From the NCBI GenBank assembly GCA_014380615.1, contig JACMJM010000002.1, positions 62,001 to 126,000 of the forward strand: a stretch of 64,000 bases of DNA. The letters run 5' to 3'. Within the stretch, counting starts at the first letter, position 1; the number at the start of each line of letters is the position of its first letter. The stretch comes from Sphingobacteriaceae bacterium. Lineage in GTDB: Bacteria > Bacteroidota > Bacteroidia > Sphingobacteriales > Sphingobacteriaceae. Below, one piece after another: positions 7,253-46,712 of this stretch. The notes under the pieces are model-generated. The model was not told where the DNA came from. It saw only the letters and a program-made list of their open reading frames with translations, and did not search any database. The translations under genes were made by a program, and so were the position numbers.

Positions 7253-8482
7253 TTGAATACATCTTTCTACATAGCAAAACGCTACCTGTTTTCAAAGAAA
7301 TCGCTTAACGCGATCAACTTTATATCGGGGATTTCTATGCTTGGGGTATTTGTGGGAAGCGCGGCGCTGGTTATCATCCTATCGGTTTTTAACGGCTTTG
7401 AAAATGTTGTTCTATCGATGTACAACAATTTTACGCCCGAGATAAGAATCGAGCCCGCCACCGGAAAAACTTTCGATCCTGGTACTGAGGTTTTTAAAAA
7501 ACTTAAAGCGGATAAGAGAATTGAAAATTATACGGAAGTTTTGCAAGAAAAGGCATTGCTTAGGTATGGCGACTCGCAGTTTATAGGCTTGGTAAAGGGC
7601 GTAAGTTCTGATTTTTTTAAACGGAAACGCTTAGATAGCACCCTGGTAGAAGGCGACTTTAAGCTAAAACAGGACGACAGCACTTTTTATGCGGCTGTAG
7701 GCTCATCGGTTAAATTGTATCTCACGGTTAATATTAACGACGACTTTACTGATCTTCAGATTTTCTCTCCCCGAAAAAATGCCGGGATCTCTATAAATCC
7801 CGCACAGGAGTTTGTAGCCAGGTCGATTCATCCGGTAGGGGTATTTCAAATTCAGCAGGTTTTTGACGAGTCGGTGCTGGTGCCGATAGAATTTACACGT
7901 GCATTGCTGGAAGAGGAAAAAGCTATTTCTACTATCGAGATCTATTCAAAAGCTGGCGAAGATCTGGATGATCTTCAGCAGGATTTTGAGAAACAACTGG
8001 GTAAAGAGTTTCTGGTTAAAAATCGCATTCAGCAAGATCAGCAATTATACAAAACCCTGAATATCGAACGCTGGGCGATATTTTTCATTCTCACTTTCGT
8101 GATGATTATTGCGATTTTTAATATTGTGGGCACACTTACCATGCTGGTAATTGACAAAAAGAAAGACATCGCCATTTTAAGCAGCATTGGTGCGGGCACT
8201 GGCCTTATCCGCCAGATTTTCTTTATTGAAGGAATGATGATTGCTCTTACAGGTTGCCTGGCAGGAATGTTTGCCGGGTTTATTTTTTGTGTCGTCCAAC
8301 AGAAATTCGGACTAATCACTATGGGTCAGGATTCGTTTATCACCGACGCGTATCCGGTAGCGATGAAGCTTGCCGACTTTGTACTGGTATTTTTAACGGT
8401 TACCCTGATTTCCATTATCGCTTCGGGAATATCATCGCGCCTTAGCGTGAATAAGATTTATGATTTGAAGGAGGATTTGTAA
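7253..8482 (+). CDS. LolC/LolE-type ABC transporter permease (FtsX fold)
   Basis: This 409-residue inner-membrane protein has one N-terminal transmembrane helix (about 20-45), a large periplasmic domain (about 46-265) and three C-terminal helices (about 268-295, 312-345, 368-395). That is the MacB/FtsX topology of LolC/LolE, which extract lipoproteins for transfer to the outer membrane. The N-terminal pattern AKRYLFSKKSLNAINFISG is typical of the family. Translation starts at a TTG one base after the MBL hydrolase stop, so the two are probably one transcript. No LolD ATPase gene is adjacent. Confidence 0.88.
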   Translation: MNTSFYIAKRYLFSKKSLNAINFISGISMLGVFVGSAALVIILSVFNGFENVVLSMYNNFTPEIRIEPATGKTFDPGTEVFKKLKADKRIENYTEVLQEKALLRYGDSQFIGLVKGVSSDFFKRKRLDSTLVEGDFKLKQDDSTFYAAVGSSVKLYLTVNINDDFTDLQIFSPRKNAGISINPAQEFVARSIHPVGVFQIQQVFDESVLVPIEFTRALLEEEKAISTIEIYSKAGEDLDDLQQDFEKQLGKEFLVKNRIQQDQQLYKTLNIERWAIFFILTFVMIIAIFNIVGTLTMLVIDKKKDIAILSSIGAGTGLIRQIFFIEGMMIALTGCLAGMFAGFIFCVVQQKFGLITMGQDSFITDAYPVAMKLADFVLVFLTVTLISIIASGISSRLSVNKIYDLKEDL

Positions 8483-8516
8483 TGGATACCGCGATGCAAC
8501 GTCCTTGAAAAAGAAA

Positions 8517-8558
8517 AAGTCATCGGATGACCTGGTATGCTTAGTCGTCCGATGACTT
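8517..8558 (-). terminator. strong intrinsic terminator, minus direction
   Basis: A 15-base stem (8517-8531 with 8544-8558, one G-T pair) built from AAGTCATCGGATGAC and a 12-base loop. On the minus strand it is followed by TTTCTTTTTC, so it ends transcription from the 10.8-8.7 kb genes. On the plus strand it may also stop readthrough from the permease gene, but there is no T-run on that side. Confidence 0.75.
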
Positions 8559-8690
8559 CTGGTGGAAAGAGTCTTAAAATTAAGAAAAAGCCGGTCGCCT
8601 TGCGGCGTCCAGCTCTTTCTATCTAAATTAACGCTCTCGAATACTTATACCCCATACCCGCTGAGAAGGTTACCATATTTTAAAAGTTTT

Positions 8691-10070
8691 TTACAATATC
8701 TCGTAACTACCTAAATCAGAGGGAAATAATCTTGCTTTACCGTTCAAATCCTTGCTTAACCATAAGCCGAAGTATGTATCAGCAGTTAAATCCTCGCCTT
8801 TATTACCCGCAGGGCTAAGTGGGGACAACGAAAAGTTGTCTTTTTCCGCAGCTTTAAACATAGGGTTCAGGTTAAGAATATTACCCAGGCCTTCGAGCGC
8901 AGTATCTCGCGATTTGATTAGATTTTTCCGAACTATCTGGCTGAAGGGAAGAGTGCCACTTTTTTGAATAAGCAGCTCATCTGCTAAATTCCCCCAGATA
9001 ATATTATTTATTAGGGTAAGGTCCATCGATTTACTTACACCCGAACCCGAAAAGTCGCTGAAAAATAATGAAGGCGTAGTTCTGGGAAATCGCGAACCTG
9101 CGTTAACAAAAGTGTTTTGCTTTAAATTATATCTCCCACCGTTTGCCGCATAAATAAGGTGCCTGCCGCAATTGGCTATTAGATTATTGAATCCAGCCAG
9201 TTCGGTATTATCCAGATAAAGTCCGGCCAATTCCATATTCTTTATAATGCTATTTGTTAGCAGTAATTTGGGGCCGGAATTCAGAGAAAGAGAATCTACG
9301 CGCACTCCTGTAACGGCGTTCTTGATGTAAGCGTAATTTATGTGGTTATCTCTACTGGTAGAAAGAAAATGTAATCCTCCCCACTGCCCGGGCTCGTCCT
9401 GATAAATTTTTTCGAGCCTGTCGCTGCTAAAACTTATAGAATCGTTCAATGTTCCGTTTACTTTTAATGTTCCGGCTATTTTCAATTGCGCATTCTTGTG
9501 GAAATAGATTCTGCTCCCCTTTTGTATTGTCAGGGTTTGGTTTGTGTTTACTTTAACCGAATTGTATATTACGTAAGGCAAAGAATTGTTCCAAACGGTA
9601 TTCGCGTCAATAACCAGGTCTTTTAAGAACACCGCATTTTGCCCATAGGCTGTAAGAACCACTTTTTGATAATTGCCGTTCGTGGTAAATTCAATAGAAT
9701 CGTTAACTATAAAAGGTAGCTGATCTGAATTAGGATTTATCGTTACTTTAACGAATATATTTAACGAGTCTTTTCCTGCCAGTTCTATATCGGGCACAAA
9801 ATTACCTGCCACGCCGTTAATGTTAATCTGATAATTTGACGCCGCTCCGCCAGCAAGTTTAATTTGCGATATCTTAACCCCATACTTACCCCGGTTATAC
9901 ACTTTAATTCGTCGGGTGGTTGAGCCTACGGATGTAAATACGGTATCAAAAAAGATGCTGTCTGAAGAAAATTCCAGCATTGCGGAAGAATCGGTAGTGA
10001 TTTTATCTTTTTCGCAAGCCCAAAGGCAAAGTGCCGAAAGAAGGAAAATGGCCAGTTTGGTTTTCATCAA
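8691..10070 (-). CDS. beta-helix lipoprotein, cell-surface type
   Basis: This 459-residue predicted lipoprotein has a signal peptide ending in the lipobox LWAC (Cys19). Residues about 30-150 look like an immunoglobulin-like or anchor module (DSIFFDTVFTSVGSTTRR; KVYNRGK). The remainder (about 165-459) has the repeating N/G-rich short-strand pattern of a right-handed parallel beta-helix (for example NINYAYIKNAVTGV and LYLDNTELAGFNNLIANCG). Such proteins are common in Bacteroidota surface layers and often bind polysaccharide, but no catalytic motif is evident. Its start overlaps the comF stop by four bases (ATGA), so the two are co-transcribed. Confidence 0.72.
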   Translation of the reverse strand: MMKTKLAIFLLSALCLWACEKDKITTDSSAMLEFSSDSIFFDTVFTSVGSTTRRIKVYNRGKYGVKISQIKLAGGAASNYQININGVAGNFVPDIELAGKDSLNIFVKVTINPNSDQLPFIVNDSIEFTTNGNYQKVVLTAYGQNAVFLKDLVIDANTVWNNSLPYVIYNSVKVNTNQTLTIQKGSRIYFHKNAQLKIAGTLKVNGTLNDSISFSSDRLEKIYQDEPGQWGGLHFLSTSRDNHINYAYIKNAVTGVRVDSLSLNSGPKLLLTNSIIKNMELAGLYLDNTELAGFNNLIANCGRHLIYAANGGRYNLKQNTFVNAGSRFPRTTPSLFFSDFSGSGVSKSMDLTLINNIIWGNLADELLIQKSGTLPFSQIVRKNLIKSRDTALEGLGNILNLNPMFKAAEKDNFSLSPLSPAGNKGEDLTADTYFGLWLSKDLNGKARLFPSDLGSYEIL

Positions 10071-10762
10071 TTTGTAAACGCTATTGTAGCAATGCTAATT
10101 TTGAGGCCGTTAATCTTTAGCAACTCGTTTGCGCAAGCCTCCAGAGTAGCTCCCGTGGTAATCACATCGTCCACTAATAAAACATGTTTGTTTTCTAAAC
10201 CCGTACTGTTTTTTACAACAAACACATTCTTCATATTCTCATAACGAACAAAACGAGATTTTCGGGTTTGTGTATCAGTAAAAATATTCCGGTAAAGATC
10301 CGTATTAACGGGAATATCCAGGCTCTGCGCTAAGCCCTTCGCAAAAAACTCACTTTGATTATAGCCTCTTTTTTTCTGTTTGGCAGGATGTAATGGTACG
10401 GGGATAATCGCTGCCAGATTTTCAATCGGGCGAGTACCTTTAAGTTTCAGGCCGTACATTTCACCCAGTTTAAAAGCTACTTCGGGTTTATTATTGTATT
10501 TAAGCTGGTGCATTAAATTTTGCACCCTCGAGCCTTTATAAAAGTACACGAAAGCATAAGCATGGTTAAACGGAATTCTACCCCAAAGTTGCCTGGCCGC
10601 AGCGTTATCGTGGTCGTGGTGAAAATCTGTATAGGGCAGGTGGTACACGCAATCTGTGCAGATAACCTCTTCATTCTTAAAAAGATTTTTTCCGCAACCG
10701 GCACAAAGCCGGGGGAAAAACAATGAAAAGAAATCTTCCGCGTATCTGAATACCGTATTCAT
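10067..10762 (-). CDS. comF: ComF family phosphoribosyltransferase-like protein
   Basis: This 231-residue protein has the ComF layout: an N-terminal zinc ribbon (Cys20, 23, 35, 38 in CAGCGKNLFKNEEVICTDC) and a type I phosphoribosyltransferase domain. The PRPP loop is VLLVDDVITTGAT (about 194-206). ComF/GntX proteins are required for DNA uptake in naturally competent species, and the exact reaction is unsettled. It overlaps the downstream lipoprotein gene by four bases and lies 35 bases after rlmN. Together with YifB/ComM this gives two competence-associated genes in the window. Confidence 0.92.
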   Translation of the reverse strand: MNTVFRYAEDFFSLFFPRLCAGCGKNLFKNEEVICTDCVYHLPYTDFHHDHDNAAARQLWGRIPFNHAYAFVYFYKGSRVQNLMHQLKYNNKPEVAFKLGEMYGLKLKGTRPIENLAAIIPVPLHPAKQKKRGYNQSEFFAKGLAQSLDIPVNTDLYRNIFTDTQTRKSRFVRYENMKNVFVVKNSTGLENKHVLLVDDVITTGATLEACANELLKINGLKISIATIAFTN

Positions 10763-10797
10763 TTTACAATAATAGAAAAAGGGAAAGCTGCGGCAAA

Positions 10798-11847
10798 CTA
10801 TTTTTCCTTAACGGCAAGCTGCCCGCAAGCTGCGTCTATATCTTTTCCCCGGCTTCGGCGAAGATTTGTAATGATCCCCTGCTTTTTAAGATAGTTTGCG
10901 AAAGCTTCGGTTTTATCTTCTCCGGCGTTTACGAATGACGCGAATGAGATGGGGTTGTACTCGATGATATTTACTTTGCAGGGTAAGTGCTTGCAAAATT
11001 TAGCAAGTTCAACTGCGTCTTCTATTTCATCATTAAAGTCGTTAAAAATAATGTATTCGTATGTTACCGGGTTTTTTGTTTTTAAGTAATAATATTTAAG
11101 AGCCTCGGCCAGGGCTTTTAATGAGTTTTGCTCGTTTATCGGCATTATCTCATTTCTTTTTTTATCATTTGCGGCATGTAAAGAAAGAGCAAGGTTAAAC
11201 TTTACATTATCGTCGCCCAACTTCTTAATCATTTTAGCGATTCCGGCTGTAGAAACAGTAATTCGCTTCGCCGACATGTTAAGACCGTTTTCCGAAGTAA
11301 GGTATTCTATAGATTTCATTACGTTGGCGTAATTCAAAAGAGGCTCACCCATGCCCATATACACTATATTGCTAAGCGGAATGCCATAATTTTCTTTTGC
11401 CTGCTTGTCTATCAATACCACCTGGTCGTATATCTCACCCGGATCGAGATTGCGTTTTCGATCCATATATCCGGTAGCGCAAAACTTGCAGGTTAAACTG
11501 CAGCCCACCTGAGAACTCACACAGGCGGTCATTCTATCGGTTGTAGGGATTAATACGCCTTCAATAATATTAGAATCGTATAACTTGAAAGTGTTTTTTA
11601 TCGTCTTATCCGAACTAAACTGACTCTGATCAATTTTAATTGAATTGATAATAAAGTTTGACGCTAATTTTTCTCTGAGCGATTTAGAGAGATTACTCAT
11701 CTCGTCAAAGCTTAAAGCAGATTTTACCCACAACCACTCGCTTATTTGCTTCGCCCTAAACGCAGGTTCTCCGTTATCCGATAAGAATTTTTTTATTTCG
11801 GCAGGTGAAAAGTTCCTGATATCACGTTTTACAAATCCCTGATTCAC
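10798..11847 (-). CDS. rlmN: 23S rRNA (adenine2503-C2)-methyltransferase RlmN, also tRNA A37
   Basis: A 349-residue radical SAM enzyme. The iron-sulfur triad is Cys116, Cys120, Cys123 (GCSLTCKFCATGYM), and the two catalytic cysteines of the family are at about 109 (ACVSSQ) and 341 (DAACGQ). The SAM-binding and substrate patterns SLHAANDKKRNEIMPIN and GMGEPLLNY are present. It methylates C2 of A2503 in 23S rRNA and A37 in some tRNAs. The start is GTG (11847-11845), placed only five bases after a TAAATTTG promoter element, so the message may be leaderless. Confidence 0.96.
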   Translation of the reverse strand: MNQGFVKRDIRNFSPAEIKKFLSDNGEPAFRAKQISEWLWVKSALSFDEMSNLSKSLREKLASNFIINSIKIDQSQFSSDKTIKNTFKLYDSNIIEGVLIPTTDRMTACVSSQVGCSLTCKFCATGYMDRKRNLDPGEIYDQVVLIDKQAKENYGIPLSNIVYMGMGEPLLNYANVMKSIEYLTSENGLNMSAKRITVSTAGIAKMIKKLGDDNVKFNLALSLHAANDKKRNEIMPINEQNSLKALAEALKYYYLKTKNPVTYEYIIFNDFNDEIEDAVELAKFCKHLPCKVNIIEYNPISFASFVNAGEDKTEAFANYLKKQGIITNLRRSRGKDIDAACGQLAVKEK

Positions 11848-11852
11848 AATTG

Positions 11853-11860
11853 CAAATTTA
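11853..11860 (-). promoter_or_regulatory. -7 promoter element of rlmN
   Basis: On the minus strand TAAATTTG (11860-11853) matches the Bacteroidota TAnnTTTG element. It ends five bases before the GTG start of rlmN. No convincing -33 TTTG is visible, so this rests on the -7 element alone. Confidence 0.4.
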
Positions 11861-11926
11861 ATTCTTATTACTAAATAATTTGTTTTTTAAATGTTAAAAC
11901 AAAATTTCACTATTATTGTTATTGTA

Positions 11927-11944
11927 ACAGCAATCCATTGCTGT
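11927..11944. repeat. short inverted repeat in the divergent rlmN/amidohydrolase spacer
   Basis: ACAGCAAT (11927-11934) and ATTGCTGT (11937-11944) are perfect complements separated by CC. The site sits 41 bases before the amidohydrolase ATG and could be an operator. It has no adjoining T-run in the plus direction except a later TTTATTTTTT, so a weak terminator is the alternative. Confidence 0.4.
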
Positions 11945-11984
11945 AATTTATTTTTTACGGGCAACAAGGGGTAAAACCCTCTAT

Positions 11985-13157
11985 ATGGTAAACTATTATA
12001 ATGCAGATTTTATTCTCACGGCTACGTCTGAACCATTAAAAAACGGCACTGTTGCTGTTGGTGAGGGTGGCACCATTATGGGCGTTTATCATGATGAGAG
12101 CCCCGAACTTGAGGGTGTAAACATAACGAAGCTCGACGGAATTATTGTGCCCGGTTTCATAAACTCTCATTGTCATTTAGAATTATCTCACCTTCACAAT
12201 AAAATCCCTCAAAAAGAAGGCCTTCTTTCATTTATTAAGAAAGTAATCAATTTTAGAAAGACTGCCCGGAGTACTCAAGCCACTATGCAAAAAGCCGATC
12301 AGCAGATGTGGGAAAACGGCATTGTAGCTGTGGCTGATATCGCCAATACCCTTGACTCTAAAAAGGTAAAAGAAGCGAGTCCTATCTATTACTACACTTT
12401 TGTGGAGCTAATTTCTTTTGAGCCCGAAAAAGCGAAAGACGCTTTTAGAAGCGGGGCAGAATTACTGGAACAATTTTCGCCGCTGCATGCCTCAATAGCA
12501 CCGCATGCGCCATATTCAGCGTCGAAAGAACTATTTCGATATATCGGGAAGTTTTGCGGCGAAACAGGGAGCCCGGTAACCATCCACAATCAGGAAAGCG
12601 AAGATGAAAATAAATTATATCGCTACAAAAGCGGCGAATTTTTAAATTTCTATAAAGAGCTGGGCATTAACATCGACTTTTTTAAACCTCAGGCACGTAA
12701 TTCAATTCAAAGTATTATTCCCCTTATCCCAATACAGCAGAGGACAATGCTGGTTCATAATACGTATACCAGTTTAAAGGATATATATTTTATTTTACGG
12801 TCGGGCAGGTTGGTAACCTGGTGTTTTTGCCCCAACGCCAATTTGCATATCGAAAACCGCTTGCCAAAGGTAGAGATGTTTCAATACCACGATTTTAACA
12901 TTACTTTGGGGACAGATAGTTTAGCTTCAAATGATAAACTGTGTATCTTATCCGAGCTTAAAACCCTGCATCAAAACTTTCCTAACTTATCCTTACAGGA
13001 AACAATAAACTGGGCTACCATAAACGGGGCTAAATTTTTAGGAATCGACACCGTATTCGGAAGCATCGAGAAGGGTAAAAAACCCGGCCTTAACCTCATC
13101 TCCAACGTCAAAGGCCTTAAGCTTTCTCCGGAATCGAAGATTAAAAAACTTGTCTGA
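11985..13157 (+). CDS. amidohydrolase-superfamily deaminase
   Basis: A 390-residue amidohydrolase of the cytosine deaminase/SAH-MTA deaminase branch. The first metal motif is SHCHLE (His62, His64). Further expected ligands are in APHAPYSAS, IHNQESEDE, and the late aspartate LGTDSLASND. A C-terminal GSIEKGKKPGLNLI pattern, the closing part of the metal-dependent hydrolase barrel, is also present. The substrate cannot be read from sequence; aminofutalosine- or adenosine-derivative deaminases share the HCHLELS start. It is divergent from rlmN and followed by acylphosphatase. Confidence 0.85.
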   Translation: MVNYYNADFILTATSEPLKNGTVAVGEGGTIMGVYHDESPELEGVNITKLDGIIVPGFINSHCHLELSHLHNKIPQKEGLLSFIKKVINFRKTARSTQATMQKADQQMWENGIVAVADIANTLDSKKVKEASPIYYYTFVELISFEPEKAKDAFRSGAELLEQFSPLHASIAPHAPYSASKELFRYIGKFCGETGSPVTIHNQESEDENKLYRYKSGEFLNFYKELGINIDFFKPQARNSIQSIIPLIPIQQRTMLVHNTYTSLKDIYFILRSGRLVTWCFCPNANLHIENRLPKVEMFQYHDFNITLGTDSLASNDKLCILSELKTLHQNFPNLSLQETINWATINGAKFLGIDTVFGSIEKGKKPGLNLISNVKGLKLSPESKIKKLV

Positions 13158-40421: not shown

Positions 40422-42887
40422 TTAAGAAAAGCCCTGCGTCATTTTAGCTACTCGCTCTTCTAATGATTCTGTTGTTAGTTTCTCCCGCAAACGATCTACC
40501 ATTATAGGAAATGCAAATGGTGTTGGCTTTTCGCTTTGCCTGATAATTATTTTCAAAGACTTTATTCGCTTAAGTGCTTCCCGCAAACGGAACTCTTCTA
40601 ATTGAAACTGAAGCGCTTCGTTATAGGCCTGTCTAACTAACACATTATCCGGCTCATATTCATTAAATACATCAAACAGTAAAGAGGTGGAAGCCTGAAG
40701 GTGCCTGTTTTTCATAGTTTTTCCCGGGAAACCGGTAAATATCAGGCCTGCGATATGCGCGATATCACGAAATTTTCTTCGAGCCATCTCATTCGCGTTA
40801 AGACTGTGCTGAATATCGTCTAACAAATTATCAAGGGTAAAAAGATCATTTTTCAAGGCTTCTTCCAGCTGTATTTCCTCATCACAAAGAAGCTCAAAGC
40901 CATAATCATTCATGGCAATAGAAAACGTGGCTTTCTTAATTTTTGAAATTCTAAAGGCGAATAGAGAAGCCATCCCTTCGTGCACAAGCCTCCCTTCAAA
41001 CGGGTAAAAGAAAAGATGATAACCGTCTTTCGAATTAAACTTTTCTATCAAAAACTCATCTTTTCTGGGCAAATGAGACATTTGCGCCTGCATATCAAAC
41101 AAGGGCCGCAGGGTTTTTATCTCAATATCCTCTTCCTGATGATTCGCTACCTCATCCAGCTTTTTACGAAACATGGCCGATAGCTGAGATGATAAAGGCA
41201 CTCTTCCACCCATCCAGCTAGGAATGCGCCCGTTTGATTTTATTGATTTTTTAACAAAGGCAGTCATGTCCTTTACTTTAACCAACTCCAAACTCCTTCC
41301 GGCAAACCAAAAGCTGTCGCCGATTTTAAGCCGGGCTATAAAATCTTCTTCTATAGAGCCCAAGTATCCACCGGTTAAAAACTTAATACGCATACTCACG
41401 TCTCCCACAATTGTTCCCATGGTTAAACGATGCCGCATCGCGACTCTTCGGCTATTTACTTTATACAAACCATCTTCAATTTCTACTTTTAAATATTCAT
41501 CGTAAGCAGAAAGTGTTTTACCGCCTTTTGTAATAAAATCAAGTATTTGTTGAAAGTCTTTTTCACCTAAATCTGCGAAAGCATAAGTGGTTTTGATCTC
41601 TTTGTAAATCTCGTTCGGACGAAATCCGTTGGAAACCGCTAGTGTTACCAGATATTGGGTAAGTACATCCATGGCAAGCAGGATCGGATCGCGGCTTTCG
41701 AATATTTCTTCAACAATAGCCTGTTTAATAGCAGCACCTTCTAATAACTCAAGCGAATGTGTAGGTACAAACCAGGCCCGTGAAGTAGCACCCGGATGGT
41801 GCCCGCTTCTTCCGGCGCGTTGCATAAACCGAGCAACACCTTTAGGGCTTCCTATTTGGATAACGCTGTCTACCGGCCGAAAATCTACGCCAAGATCCAA
41901 ACTGGATGTACAAACTACAACCTTTAGCATCTCTGCATGCAGCGCGTTTTCAACCCAGGCCCGAAGTTCATTATCAAGAGACCCGTGGTGCATTGCCATT
42001 ATTCCGGCATATTCCGGATAACGTTCCAGAATAGCCTGGTACCATATTTCGGTTTGTGAGCGTGTATTGGTAAAGATGAGGGTGGTTTTACTTTGGGCTA
42101 CAATCTCCATTACCCGGGGCAATAGTTTTATACCTAAGTGGCCGGCCCATGAAAATTCTTCGATGTTTTCGGGAATAATCGAATTGATAACTATTTCCTT
42201 ATTTATACTGGCCCTAATCAGTTTAACCTGATTATCGTTCATGTCTGTTCCGAGGAGCACTTCAGCCGCCTGATCAAGATTTCCGATAGTAGCGCTGATC
42301 CCCCATATCTTAAGGCGGGTATTTTCTGCTTGCCCGCTTGCCGCTAAGAATTTAAGTTTCGACAGGCCCAACTCTAACTGCACCCCTCTCTTGGTTCCAA
42401 GTAACTCGTGCCACTCATCGGCAACTACCACCTGTAGGTTTTCAAAAATCTTTGGGTAATCTTTCTGCGCCAGCATAATATGAAGACTTTCCGGAGTGGT
42501 AAGCAGTACCTCTGGCAAACGTTTTTTAATCGCCTCTTTTTCTTTCGCTGATGTATCACCTGTTCGGGCGGCAACGGTCCATGGCAATTGTAAATCGTCC
42601 ACTACAGACTGCATGGCTTTACGAATATCGTTGGTAAGCGCACGTAATGGCGTAATCCACAACATCAGTAAACCATTATTCTTTCTTTGCTGATAAGTGT
42701 CGGGGTATTTATTAATGTAATCGGCTACAAAGGGAAGAAACAAAGCAAAAGTTTTACCGCTGCCGGTAGGTGCGTTTAGCAGCCCGGAATAGCCAGAAAT
42801 AAAAGCCTTTTCCATCTCTTTTTGAAAGGGGAACTGTTCCCACTGCTTTTGCCTGTACCATTTTGAGATTACTTCTTCGCCCTTCAT
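40422..42887 (-). CDS. DNA ligase-associated DEXH-box helicase (Lhr type)
   Basis: An 821-residue helicase with Walker A NAPTGSGKT (38-46), DEWH in VVADEWHELLGTKRG (about 155), motif VI QRAGRSGHHPG, and a C-terminal region typical of Lhr-type proteins. This family travels with an ATP-dependent ligase, an MBL exonuclease and a metallophosphoesterase in a predicted DNA repair cluster. Here the helicase is intact, but the exonuclease and ligase next to it are remnants (43544-44320). No metallophosphoesterase follows. The start ATG is 13 bases after the Uma2 stop. Confidence 0.9.
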   Translation of the reverse strand: MKGEEVISKWYRQKQWEQFPFQKEMEKAFISGYSGLLNAPTGSGKTFALFLPFVADYINKYPDTYQQRKNNGLLMLWITPLRALTNDIRKAMQSVVDDLQLPWTVAARTGDTSAKEKEAIKKRLPEVLLTTPESLHIMLAQKDYPKIFENLQVVVADEWHELLGTKRGVQLELGLSKLKFLAASGQAENTRLKIWGISATIGNLDQAAEVLLGTDMNDNQVKLIRASINKEIVINSIIPENIEEFSWAGHLGIKLLPRVMEIVAQSKTTLIFTNTRSQTEIWYQAILERYPEYAGIMAMHHGSLDNELRAWVENALHAEMLKVVVCTSSLDLGVDFRPVDSVIQIGSPKGVARFMQRAGRSGHHPGATSRAWFVPTHSLELLEGAAIKQAIVEEIFESRDPILLAMDVLTQYLVTLAVSNGFRPNEIYKEIKTTYAFADLGEKDFQQILDFITKGGKTLSAYDEYLKVEIEDGLYKVNSRRVAMRHRLTMGTIVGDVSMRIKFLTGGYLGSIEEDFIARLKIGDSFWFAGRSLELVKVKDMTAFVKKSIKSNGRIPSWMGGRVPLSSQLSAMFRKKLDEVANHQEEDIEIKTLRPLFDMQAQMSHLPRKDEFLIEKFNSKDGYHLFFYPFEGRLVHEGMASLFAFRISKIKKATFSIAMNDYGFELLCDEEIQLEEALKNDLFTLDNLLDDIQHSLNANEMARRKFRDIAHIAGLIFTGFPGKTMKNRHLQASTSLLFDVFNEYEPDNVLVRQAYNEALQFQLEEFRLREALKRIKSLKIIIRQSEKPTPFAFPIMVDRLREKLTTESLEERVAKMTQGFS

Positions 42888-42900
42888 TAAAGAAGCAGAA

Positions 42901-43500
42901 TTAGTTAATCACCGTACCTTCATAAATACCCTTAACGAGGATGTTTATACCAAGAGTAGGAATGATCAAAATCTCGGTTGTTTGTTTTAATTCCTCCAGT
43001 TCCCAATGGCTATTTTGATTTAAGCGGAAGGATTCGATATTTACAGTCTCCGAATCTATCAGTATGTATTCTTTGAGAGTAGGAATATCTCTATAGAGCT
43101 TAAACTTTGCGCCTCGGTCATAATTACGCGTAGAAGGAGATAAAATTTCGATTAGGATGGTTGGCTCGGTCGCAGTAAATTTTGCGTCTTGTATATCGGA
43201 ATCTAACTTGCGGCAAATTATAGAGATGTCGGGATATGTGTATAAGCTATTTTGAGGAATGTGAATTCTGAGATCACTTCCATAAGGCTTGCAGGGCTTG
43301 CCTTTTAACTTTGTTCCGATATCAACGAATAAATTGCTGAATATTTCATTATGATTTTTTTCAGCCCCTGCCATAGCAAATATTTCGCCCTGGAAAAATT
43401 CATGCTTTTGTGGCGAGTCTTTTTCGAACTCTAAATATTCATCCGGTGTAAGCAATTGCTTACCATAAGCAACAACAGGTTCTCTGACATCAAAATCCAT
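42901..43500 (-). CDS. Uma2 family (DUF820) nuclease-like protein
   Basis: A 199-residue Uma2/DUF820 protein with the PD-(D/E)xK-like core: PDISII, then [19 protein letters not shown] and [10 protein letters not shown]. The family is often transferred between genomes and is predicted to be a nuclease, with no proven role. It lies where the ligase gene of the repair cluster should be, between the ligase stub and the intact helicase. It is probably transcribed with the helicase gene. The spacer before its start holds an A/T-rich segment only. Confidence 0.86.
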
Positions 43501-43543: not shown

Positions 43544-43660
43544 TCATTTCGAAAGCAACAATTTAAGAACTTCCAAGGTGTCGGCCTCTTCTATTTTTTT
43601 ATCCTGTCGCCATCTAAGAATCCCACCTCCTTCCTTTTCAGAATTTACGATCACTTCTCC
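43544..43660 (-). pseudogene. C-terminal stub of the ligase-associated ATP-dependent DNA ligase
   Basis: Translating the minus strand from about 43660 to a TGA at 43546-43544 gives a run containing ILRWRQDKKIEEADTLEVLK. This resembles the C-terminal end of the ligases that accompany this helicase family (pattern RWR-DK-xEADTL). About 25-35 residues remain of a protein of roughly 530. The stub is in the same frame as the decayed exonuclease upstream and separated from it by a TAG. It is too short to fold on its own. The match is from memory of the family pattern, not from a search. Confidence 0.6.
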
Positions 43661-44320
43661 CTAATCATTCACCAAATCAACAGGTAATTCATTTTCTTCG
43701 GTTGCTTCATCGCCTCCATAATACGTATGGGCTTCGTGGGCATTATAACCACTTCGGGAAAGATATCTTGCGAAGGATGTGGTGCAACCATGTGTAAGGC
43801 TTACACATTCAGTTGCGTCAATAGCTTTAATCAGTCCATCCCAGTCAGCGTGGTCAGATAATACGAAACCACGATCGGCCGCCATGCGCCGTTTGGCCCC
43901 GCGAAGAGTCATCCAACCCGAACAATAACCAAATGCATAAGGCTGAAACTTCCTGATCCATGGTGAATAACCTGCGATAACTGTTGTTTTACCCTCTTCG
44001 GCGTTAGCCTCCACCAGTTATTAATATCTTTATGAACCAGTGCCGGATCATTCCATTTGTAAACAGGCATTCCGAAAGTACATTCTGAAATGAAAGTATG
44101 GCATTTTAAGGGTTCAAAAGGTGTAGAAATTCCGTCGTTTTCTAGTTTATAACCCCCAGCCACACTTCTTCATTGTATTCAACCCGGATTTGTGCCGATT
44201 CGATTATGTGGCCTGCGGGATGAAAAGAAATGTTCACTCCGTTTTTTTGGATTCGCTCGCCATATTCTATTGTTTGAAGCTGAACGTCGACACCGATAAT
44301 AAACCTTTGAACCAGCGGTA
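43661..44320 (-). pseudogene. decayed ligase-associated MBL exonuclease
   Basis: The minus strand codes a broken ligase-associated exonuclease in pieces. A first part (44318 to about 44160) contains GVNISFHPAGHIIESAQIRV. A small lesion near 44160 shifts the frame, the original frame meeting TAG at 44144-44142. A middle part (KLENDGISTPFEPLKCHTF, then PVYKWNDPALVHKDINNWW) follows. A second shift at about 44008 looks like a lost G in AGGGCT. A last part (ANAEEGKTTVIAGYS joined to PWIRKFQPYA, then DRGFVLSDHADWDGL) ends at TAG 43661. The GYS/PWI joint at about 43963 lacks roughly 60 residues present in intact members. The N-terminus with the HxHxDH motif is missing. Confidence 0.8.
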
Positions 44321-44330
44321 TGGTTTGAAA

Positions 44331-44365
44331 AAGAAAAACCCGGCATTTTGTGCCAGGTTTTTCTT
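44331..44365 (-). terminator. intrinsic terminator after the tail-specific protease gene
   Basis: Stem AAGAAAAACC + C + GGCA (44331-44345) with TGCC + A + GGTTTTTCTT (44351-44365), one mismatch, loop of five. On the minus strand it ends in TTTTTCTTTTTC, 18 bases past the protease stop. It also separates that gene from the exonuclease remnant. Confidence 0.75.
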
Positions 44366-44382
44366 CGATTTAATCATATTGA

Positions 44383-46662
44383 TTAATATCTCATACTATA
44401 TTTTCCGGTTTCTTTAAGCTGGATAAAATCGGCCATTACTTTCAGGCTCTCATCTTGTATAAAATCGTTGTCTTGCTTTGGTGCCACTTCGCCTTTTTTC
44501 AAAGCTGGCAGGCCTTGTAAAGCACGGCGCTGATTTGTTCGGGCAAGATTAACAGCTTCCTGCTCGTCTCTCTCTTTTTTTAGCTGCGCTTCATTAAGCG
44601 TTACCGAGTTTTCGGCCTCGCGTTTTTTAAATTGTTGGATATCTTCCAGCAAATATTTGTACTCTGTAGATGTCTTCATACGTTGCTGGTGTTGTTTTGC
44701 CAATTGCGATTTAACTGAAGCAAGGTTGGCAACCGGACTAAAGGGTGCCGGTTTGATCATATCAAAAGGTAAAGCAGCAGGTTCAGAGCTTTCGCCATAT
44801 TTTTCCGCAGGGTAAATCATCGGGAACTCAATATCAGGAATAACTCCTTTATGCTGAGTGCTGCTTCCGTTGATGCGATAAAATTTCGCGATTGTAAGAT
44901 TAATCTGTCCAAATTTCGGGGTACCTGTATCTGAAGAATTACCGCCGATGGTTACTTTGGTACCATCTTTTGTGTTAGAATTTGATGCCGACGCACTCTT
45001 TGCTTTGAGAATTATTTCATCCAGAGTACTTACAAACTTCGACATGTCGATTGCCTGCTGAACAGTTCCTTTACCATACGTTTGGGTCCCCATGATAACT
45101 CCGCGCCCATAATCCTGAATAGCGGCCGCAAAAATTTCGGATGCGGAGGCACTAAACCGATCAATCATTACACCCATTGGGCCAGTCCAGGCAATAGCCT
45201 CATCATCATCTTGGTTGACTTCTGTTCTTCGTAAATCTTTTACCTGAACAACAGGTCCGGTTTTAATAAACAGACCGGTTAATTCAATTGCCTCAATTAA
45301 AGATCCGCCACCGTTGGTACGAAGATCAATAACAATACCGTCAACATTTTGCTGCTTTAAGGTATCAATGATTCTTCTTACATCGCGTGTAGTGCTTTTA
45401 TAATCCGGGTCGCCGGATTGATAGGCTCTGAAATCAAGATAAAATCCCGGAACATCAATAACACCAATTTTATAGGTTTTTCCCTCAGACACTACTGTTT
45501 TGATTGTCTTCTTAGCAGATTGCTCTTCCAGAATTACCTTATCACGTACAATAGAAATCACTTTTGGTTGCGATGAAAGCTCCTGGCCGGCAGGGATTAT
45601 TTTCAATCTTACTGTAGTGCCTTTAGGCCCCTTAATTTTTTGGACGGTATTATCGAGTCTCCATCCGATAACATCAATAAATTCGTCGTTGCCTTGCGCT
45701 ACCGCGATAATTCTATCGCCAGCGTTTAAAGTTTTCGCTTTAAATGCCGGACCGCCGGGCACTACCGACGCTACTTTTACCACTTCATTTTCGAGTTGTA
45801 AGGTGGCCCCGATTCCAGTAAAACTGCGGGCCATTTCTTCGTTAAACTCCTGAGCTTTTGTGGGAACAAGGTAGTTTGTATGCGGATCTACCGATTGTGT
45901 AAAGGCGTCCATCATGATCTGAAAAGCATCCTGACCATTTGTTTTTTGAGCTTGCGATAATAAGTTTTGGTATCTTTTCTTTAAAACATCTCTGTTTTTA
46001 GCTGCGGCGGTGTCTGCTGTGCTTTTCGCTGCCTCTGCTCCGTTTCTTCTTGGATCCTCTCCCTTAATCTTTATAGGCTGAATTCCTGACGTCGATCCGC
46101 CGCTGGCGATTCTCAAATTCAACAAATCATATTTTATCCTTTTGGACCAAAGTTGATTAGCTTCTTCAATTGAATTTAACCAAGGTAGTTTTTCACGATT
46201 GTAGACATATTCCTCTGATTTACTGAAGTCGTACGCCTTGCTAATCTGAGCAATTGAATAAGTTATGCGATCCTGATAGCGTTTTTGGAAGGTATTAAAT
46301 ATCAGGAAAAATGAACTTAAATCGCCTTCGCGTAACTGATTGTCAAGACTCTTGCGGAACTTTTCAAAGCTCTTCACATCTGAGGAAAGAAAATAATTAC
46401 GAGACGGATCCAGGCTATTGATGTATTTATCAAAGATTACGCTTGATAGGGAATCGTTAATTTTTATACGTTTATAGTGCAGCATTTCAATTGCCTTAAC
46501 CAACTCTTTAGCCACAATTTGCTGCTGCGGTTCCGGAGAAAGGTTATTAGAGCCCTCCACATTGGTATTGGTTGGTAAATTTGCTTTGCATGCGAAGGCT
46601 GCCACAATAAACAAAGCCAAAAATATTTTCTTCAGCATTTCCTTGAACGATTTAAAATCCAT
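44383..46662 (-). CDS. prc: tail-specific protease (C-terminal processing peptidase, S41, Prc)
   Basis: A roughly 759-residue lipoprotein protease. Signal ends at AAFAC, then an N-terminal helical domain and a PDZ domain (about 240-330: GIGATLQLENEVVKVASVVPGGPA). The S41 core has the serine in FSASASEIFA and the lysine in GTQTYGKGTVQQ. A C-terminal DUF3340-like region follows. It trims C-termini of periplasmic proteins. The ATG at 46662 is preferred over a TTG at 46671; an internal ATG at 46638 would leave the signal peptide intact and is a possible alternative. Confidence 0.92.
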   Translation of the reverse strand: MDFKSFKEMLKKIFLALFIVAAFACKANLPTNTNVEGSNNLSPEPQQQIVAKELVKAIEMLHYKRIKINDSLSSVIFDKYINSLDPSRNYFLSSDVKSFEKFRKSLDNQLREGDLSSFFLIFNTFQKRYQDRITYSIAQISKAYDFSKSEEYVYNREKLPWLNSIEEANQLWSKRIKYDLLNLRIASGGSTSGIQPIKIKGEDPRRNGAEAAKSTADTAAAKNRDVLKKRYQNLLSQAQKTNGQDAFQIMMDAFTQSVDPHTNYLVPTKAQEFNEEMARSFTGIGATLQLENEVVKVASVVPGGPAFKAKTLNAGDRIIAVAQGNDEFIDVIGWRLDNTVQKIKGPKGTTVRLKIIPAGQELSSQPKVISIVRDKVILEEQSAKKTIKTVVSEGKTYKIGVIDVPGFYLDFRAYQSGDPDYKSTTRDVRRIIDTLKQQNVDGIVIDLRTNGGGSLIEAIELTGLFIKTGPVVQVKDLRRTEVNQDDDEAIAWTGPMGVMIDRFSASASEIFAAAIQDYGRGVIMGTQTYGKGTVQQAIDMSKFVSTLDEIILKAKSASASNSNTKDGTKVTIGGNSSDTGTPKFGQINLTIAKFYRINGSSTQHKGVIPDIEFPMIYPAEKYGESSEPAALPFDMIKPAPFSPVANLASVKSQLAKQHQQRMKTSTEYKYLLEDIQQFKKREAENSVTLNEAQLKKERDEQEAVNLARTNQRRALQGLPALKKGEVAPKQDNDFIQDESLKVMADFIQLKETGKYSMRY

Positions 46663-46712
46663 TTGTATCAACTCTCTCGAAAAATTATACCAGAGTCTGT
46701 AATTAAATAAAA

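Follow-up and report, generated by a model that had tools for sequence, protein, structure and literature searches.

The window, the whole 64,000-nucleotide stretch of Sphingobacteriaceae DNA analysed here (genome G000), encodes an intact helicase of the Lhr-Core type (TIGR04121) next to the remains of an exonuclease (TIGR04122) and of a ligase (TIGR04120), the latter reduced to 23 codons; the remnants together occupy positions 44344-43546 of the minus strand. With a probability of roughly 0.8, the locus holds a young pseudogene pair, produced by one more case of the recurrent loss of a dispensable exonuclease-ligase arm, beside a helicase that is kept for its work with the metallophosphoesterase PdeM. 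Taken by itself, the pseudogene pair is real and is a matter of ordinary gene decay, and its use is comparative; the separable halves of the system are the part that merits specialist attention.

Decay of the exonuclease and ligase genes

The reference for the comparison is G001, a genome of the same genus that carries the intact exonuclease-ligase-helicase trio at the same site, behind the same tail-specific protease (locus L154: exonuclease 7632-8750, ligase 8747-10357, helicase 10379-12877). The features of the locus in the window are as follows:

44383..46671, minus strand: tail-specific protease (Prc/S41; NCBIfam NF008388/TIGR00225), the upstream flank that fixes the synteny with G001
44300..44344, minus strand: surviving 5' end of the exonuclease gene, roughly its first twelve codons; 45 bp at 71% identity to L154 7617-7661
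44160..44294, minus strand: exonuclease piece A, residues ~78-120 of the G001 exonuclease (71% amino acid identity, 74% DNA identity); TIGR04122 positions 54-104, 1.4e-13
44006..44159, minus strand: exonuclease piece B, residues ~123-171; TIGR04122 positions 106-166, 7.4e-20; behind a 7-bp deletion
43665..44005, minus strand: exonuclease piece C, residues ~172-187 and ~249-353, now contiguous (70% amino acid identity); TIGR04122 positions 238-325, 2.2e-28; behind a 1-bp deletion
43546..43621, minus strand: C-terminal stub of the ligase (TIGR04120), in which the 23 matching codons are followed by two further codons and TGA; the remaining ~510 codons of the gene have been deleted
42901..43500, minus strand: Uma2-fold putative nuclease gene (PF05685, 4.9e-35), between the ligase stub and the helicase
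40422..42887, minus strand: intact Lhr-Core-type helicase (TIGR04121) with DEAD, Helicase_C, WH_Lhr and DEAD_assoc domains

The genes preceding the trio are the same in both genomes, namely those for a cyanophycin synthetase, a cyanophycinase-like and an isoaspartyl-peptidase-like protein and two TPR proteins (names read from the sequences), followed by the protease, which is 81% identical to its counterpart in G001. The three exonuclease pieces, which lie in three frames, are collinear with the intact G001 exonuclease and 70%, 56% and 71% identical to it (pieces C, B and A, respectively), and their matches to the family profile (2.2e-28, 7.4e-20 and 1.4e-13, in the same sequence of pieces) in the syntenic position establish common descent. 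The exonuclease and ligase homology, the gene order, the decay and the adjoining intact helicase had all been recognised in a preliminary description of the locus, and are borne out by the profile matches and the synteny with G001; the coordinates given there, 43544-44320, are correct to within ~25 bases.

The lesions can be read from the alignment to G001. Beyond the surviving 5' end of the exonuclease gene, the alignment resumes only at L154 7854, so that ~190 bp are deleted, including the codons of the metal-binding motif HAHSDHA (HxHxDH, metallo-beta-lactamase fold). Near 44160, the loss of 7 bp has taken out the Ser-Gly-Asp of "VVSGDYK", and with it the SGD aspartate, and has changed the reading frame, which changes again with the loss of 1 bp near 44006; ~60 codons are gone in frame near 43962 and an additional 6 bp are missing near 43811. 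The preliminary description had listed the lesion near 44160, a frameshift near 44008 and an in-frame loss of about 60 residues at about 43963, all of which are found at or within a few bases of these positions, but it overlooked the larger 5' deletion with the HAHSDHA codons. A functional TIGR04122 protein is recognised by the metal-binding HxHxDH, the following Asp and an intact frame; here, HAHSDHA and the Asp are deleted and the remainder is spread over three frames.

Most of the ligase gene was removed by a deletion of ~1.55 kb that extends from the C-terminus of the exonuclease to the last 23 ligase codons. Across this deletion, global alignment gave spurious ligase matches of 4-11 bp, and accordingly only blastn and tblastn segments were used there. 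The suspected ligase C-terminus proved to be genuine: the stub (43621-43553) is identical to residues 514-536 of the G001 ligase at 19 of 23 positions, with 41 of 51 bp identical (E 7e-9 in the smaller search and 6e-4 in the larger one). Neither the nucleotidyltransferase core nor the OB domain that define a functional TIGR04120 (LigB class) ligase is left. Because several large collinear deletions are among the losses, the remnants are neither chance similarities nor sequencing noise.

The Uma2 gene is absent from G001 and from every other locus compared (tblastn). It ends 13 bp before the start of the helicase, so that transcription of the helicase may now begin at the Uma2 promoter. Immediately 5' of the Uma2 gene start is a palindrome, TACTAATTAAATTAGTA. 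At the end of the protease gene (44330-44363, minus strand), a terminator-like hairpin is followed by T-rich sequence and is conserved in G001, so that the exonuclease-ligase-helicase genes probably had a promoter of their own.

Age of the decay

Over the 198 surviving codons, the exonuclease remnant differs from the G001 gene at 31, 13 and 107 first, second and third codon positions, respectively, and with G007 as the outgroup, 21 residue changes fall on the remnant compared to 5 on the G001 side. The bias towards third positions together with the excess of residue changes in the remnant implies that the exonuclease was under selection for most of the time since the split from G001 and broke recently. 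Relative-rate tests show no such excess in the flanking protease or in the helicase, for which the numbers of own changes in G000 and G001 with four outgroups are 28 vs 38, 32 vs 27, 24 vs 32 and 25 vs 32.

The retained helicase and PdeM

The helicase was described as intact from the outset, and this assessment holds: the complete 821-codon frame matches TIGR04121 over residues 7-818 with 1096.9 bits, compared to a cut-off of 850, consists of RecA1, RecA2, winged helix and Domain 4 without a C-terminal extension, and is 87% identical to the G001 helicase. With its Walker A, DEWH and motif VI present, the protein probably is an ATP-dependent 3'-to-5' helicase, an activity that is known for its relatives (PMC7437997).

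The preliminary description also held that the helicase was retained without any visible partner. It is not partnerless, however, because G000 encodes an intact PdeM (TIGR04123) on another contig (C38, 117072-117698), a protein of 222 amino acids in an intact frame that scores 217 bits against a cut-off of 150. PdeM is a manganese-dependent metallophosphoesterase. The clustering of this phosphoesterase with the other three genes, which had likewise been proposed, is found in other phyla and in some Sphingobacteriaceae, but not in G000, where two of the four genes are pseudogenes and PdeM is on another contig, nor within the ~10 kb flanks of the closest named relatives (Arcticibacter; loci L100, L101 and L150). 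Among genomes that have lost the exonuclease and ligase, PdeM adjoins the helicase in G005, G354 and G402.

Other exonuclease and ligase candidates in the genome

In G000, a search for another ligase of the TIGR04120 family yielded only an 849-aa LigD-like frame on contig C31, which matches positions 215-514 of the profile alone and was rejected as the lost ligase. A TIGR04122-like gene on contig C22 (L008 7135-8076) is intact and retains HAHGDH; at 266 bits against a cut-off of 325, in a different context next to coaE, and nearly universal in the family, including reduced genomes of 1.5-2 Mb, it was rejected as an intact copy of the lost exonuclease. Paralogues of the C22 type have no NCBIfam name of their own. 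The G000 assembly is a draft of 68 contigs and 93% complete, so that a horizontally acquired exonuclease-ligase pair could sit in an assembly gap.

The presence of these two frames in G000, one of them with its metal-binding motif, gives some substance to the view that the full pathway persists with swapped parts, with the C22 protein, an MBL exonuclease-like protein, and LigD supplying the exonuclease and the ligase. Nevertheless, this view is doubtful. Both paralogues are widespread in relatives that also possess the complete set and the C22 paralogue also occurs in reduced genomes that have no such helicase (G006, G030), which argues against their recruitment as replacements; furthermore, the gene neighbouring C22 is coaE, not a repair gene. 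The C22 paralogue might cover part of the exonuclease function.

Co-occurrence in the family

The survey covered 401 genomes of the family, 345 of which encode a TIGR04121-type helicase; this count includes three helicases that score under the cut-off (G333, G356, G383) and leaves out G008 and G029, whose Lhr frames are of the full-length kind (1445 and 1491 aa). PdeM is present in 344 of the 345 helicase genomes and in none of the 56 others (Fisher p about 4e-68, not corrected for relatedness), the sole exception being G394, an assembly that is 92% complete. In seven genera that usually keep both proteins (g4, g5, g13, g14, g16, g18 and g21), there are genomes from which the two are missing together, and because joint absence recurs in this manner, shared ancestry alone is a poor explanation of the co-occurrence.

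Of the 325 genomes in which the ligase was detected, 322 encode the helicase; a TIGR04122 match over the cut-off likewise occurs in 325 genomes. All 23 helicase genomes that lack the ligase lack a TIGR04122 match over the cut-off as well, and all 23 keep PdeM; these helicase-only genomes are G000, G005, G014, G036, G097, G138, G170, G232, G241, G253, G263, G271, G274, G292, G310, G322, G337, G354, G358, G361, G400, G402 and G405, and belong to seven genera (g1, g5, g13, g14, g15, g16 and g18). The sets were compiled by hand and are consistent with the tallies. The reverse state, a ligase without a TIGR04121-type helicase, is limited to three genomes (G008, G024, G150).

Recurrent loss and selection on the helicase

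The expectation that the genes would be broken in this strain only does not survive the survey. In a phylogeny of 61 helicases, with the 23 genomes and G050 from another family as its helicase-only tips, the helicase-only state requires 13 changes (gains or losses of the state), and although the tree comes from a quick IQ-TREE search and its root and some deep joins are unsure, at least 11 of these changes are forced by well-supported branches. An independent case is found beside the helicase of G036 (L155 9138-9694): residues 17-166 of the G001 exonuclease remain in a truncated gene that ends 95 bp before the helicase match, and the ligase is gone.

Between G000 and G001, synonymous sites have reached saturation, and therefore the case for selection on the helicase rests on other genomes, namely on close pairs and relative-rate tests. 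The helicase dN/dS (NG86; the larger dS values are near saturation) is 0.034-0.074 between close species that both lack the exonuclease and ligase and 0.022-0.065 between species with the complete set. When the helicase of a helicase-only genome is compared to that of a complete genome, 11 of 13 relative-rate tests detect no difference; of the two exceptions, the helicase-only member is faster for G322 and the complete genome is faster in the comparison with G400. Purifying selection and unchanged rates thus indicate that the helicase is maintained without the exonuclease and ligase.

These results bear on the suggestion, already voiced in the preliminary description, that the helicase itself is in the early stage of loss, its partners being gone and the time too short for visible decay. 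The youth of the exonuclease remnant, which leaves little time for the G000 helicase to deteriorate, and the in-frame TAG in the helicase of one helicase-only genome, G097, speak for such a scenario. It is distinctly improbable, however, because selection remains strong in pairs that both lack the exonuclease and ligase already; in addition, the helicase is not accelerated in G000, G322 is the only helicase-only genome with a faster helicase, and PdeM is kept throughout the helicase-only set. The explanation that the lesions are assembly or sequencing artefacts in a draft of 68 contigs and that the gene is intact is negligible, given deletions of ~190 bp, ~180 bp and ~1.55 kb and losses of 7, 6 and 1 bp that are all collinear with the intact locus, an inserted Uma2 gene and the excess of amino acid changes in the remnant.

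Relationship to known systems and other phyla

Among the helicase loci compared, the order exonuclease-ligase-helicase-metallophosphoesterase (MPE) is common in Gemmatimonadota, Myxococcota, Thermodesulfobacteriota, Chloroflexota, Planctomycetota and Pseudomonadota. In four loci (L119, L121, L141, L145), a helicase-MPE pair has no exonuclease or ligase in the 6-10 kb upstream, a matter of adjacency rather than of genome-wide absence. Lhr-Core is a 3'-to-5' translocase and helicase that is often encoded beside an MPE (PMC7437997, PMC8301817), which is a neighbour in 276 of 319 bLhr genomes (PMC8301817), and LigB-class ligases are encoded alongside an Lhr helicase and two nucleases (PMC10799422).

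The closest known system is the Lhr-Core/MPE (PdeM)/Exo/LigB cluster of the Pseudomonas putida type (TIGR04120-TIGR04123): the G000 helicase and PdeM both score above the curated cut-offs, the remnants are the exonuclease and ligase of that set, and the ancestral exonuclease-ligase-helicase order matches relatives and other phyla, whereas the pseudogenization of these two genes, the unlinked PdeM on another contig and the inserted Uma2 gene set G000 apart. In the lack of a dedicated ligase, G000 and the other helicase-only Sphingobacteriaceae resemble the two-gene Lhr-Core and MPE neighbourhoods of bacteria and archaea (PMC7437997, PMC8301817); however, the two genes lie apart in G000, whose condition is secondary and still shows traces of the lost arm. 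Full-length Lhr, which occurs with Nei2 or RNase T in mycobacteria and E. coli (PMC11323726, PMC10953399), shares the helicase superfamily core, but the window protein is this core only (821 aa), without the C-terminal glycosylase/tetramerisation region.

A two-unit model of the repair system

The ancestor of G000 most probably carried the intact exonuclease-ligase-helicase trio at this site, as G001 does. In the G000 lineage, successive deletions then wrecked the exonuclease gene and took out almost the whole ligase gene, and the Uma2 gene was inserted. The helicase was probably kept because it works with the PdeM encoded elsewhere. By analogy with characterised relatives, the helicase may translocate 3'-to-5' on single-stranded DNA and open damaged structures of the fork, gap or RNA:DNA type, and the single strand so exposed may be nicked by PdeM. 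Trimming and sealing would fall to the dedicated exonuclease and ligase in complete relatives and to general nucleases, polymerase and other ligases in G000.

More generally, we somewhat favour the possibility that the cluster consists of two nested units: helicase and PdeM would form an obligate machine, and exonuclease and ligase a dispensable arm whose two members almost always disappear jointly. Helicase and PdeM would then perform a repair reaction of their own and leave its product to whichever ligase is present. What co-occurrence and purifying selection demonstrate is the retention of helicase and PdeM, and not their function. Should the two-unit arrangement be correct, the name "ligase-associated" would be misleading as to the function of the helicase-PdeM core. 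The recurrent joint loss of the exonuclease and ligase, with helicase and PdeM staying, means that evolution alone separates the parts of a poorly understood repair system, and the pattern points to natural helicase-only species for testing the function of the core without the exonuclease and ligase.

Variation within the helicase genes

In the helicases of genus g14 and of G097 (L206/L169), the segment at about residues 170-200, which is flanked by the DEWH box and the SAT motif, resembles a hot spot for insertions and contains stretches that seem to derive from repeats, for example PALSKGEG. It is a triple repeat of TTTTAGC within this segment that puts the in-frame TAG into the helicase gene of G097.
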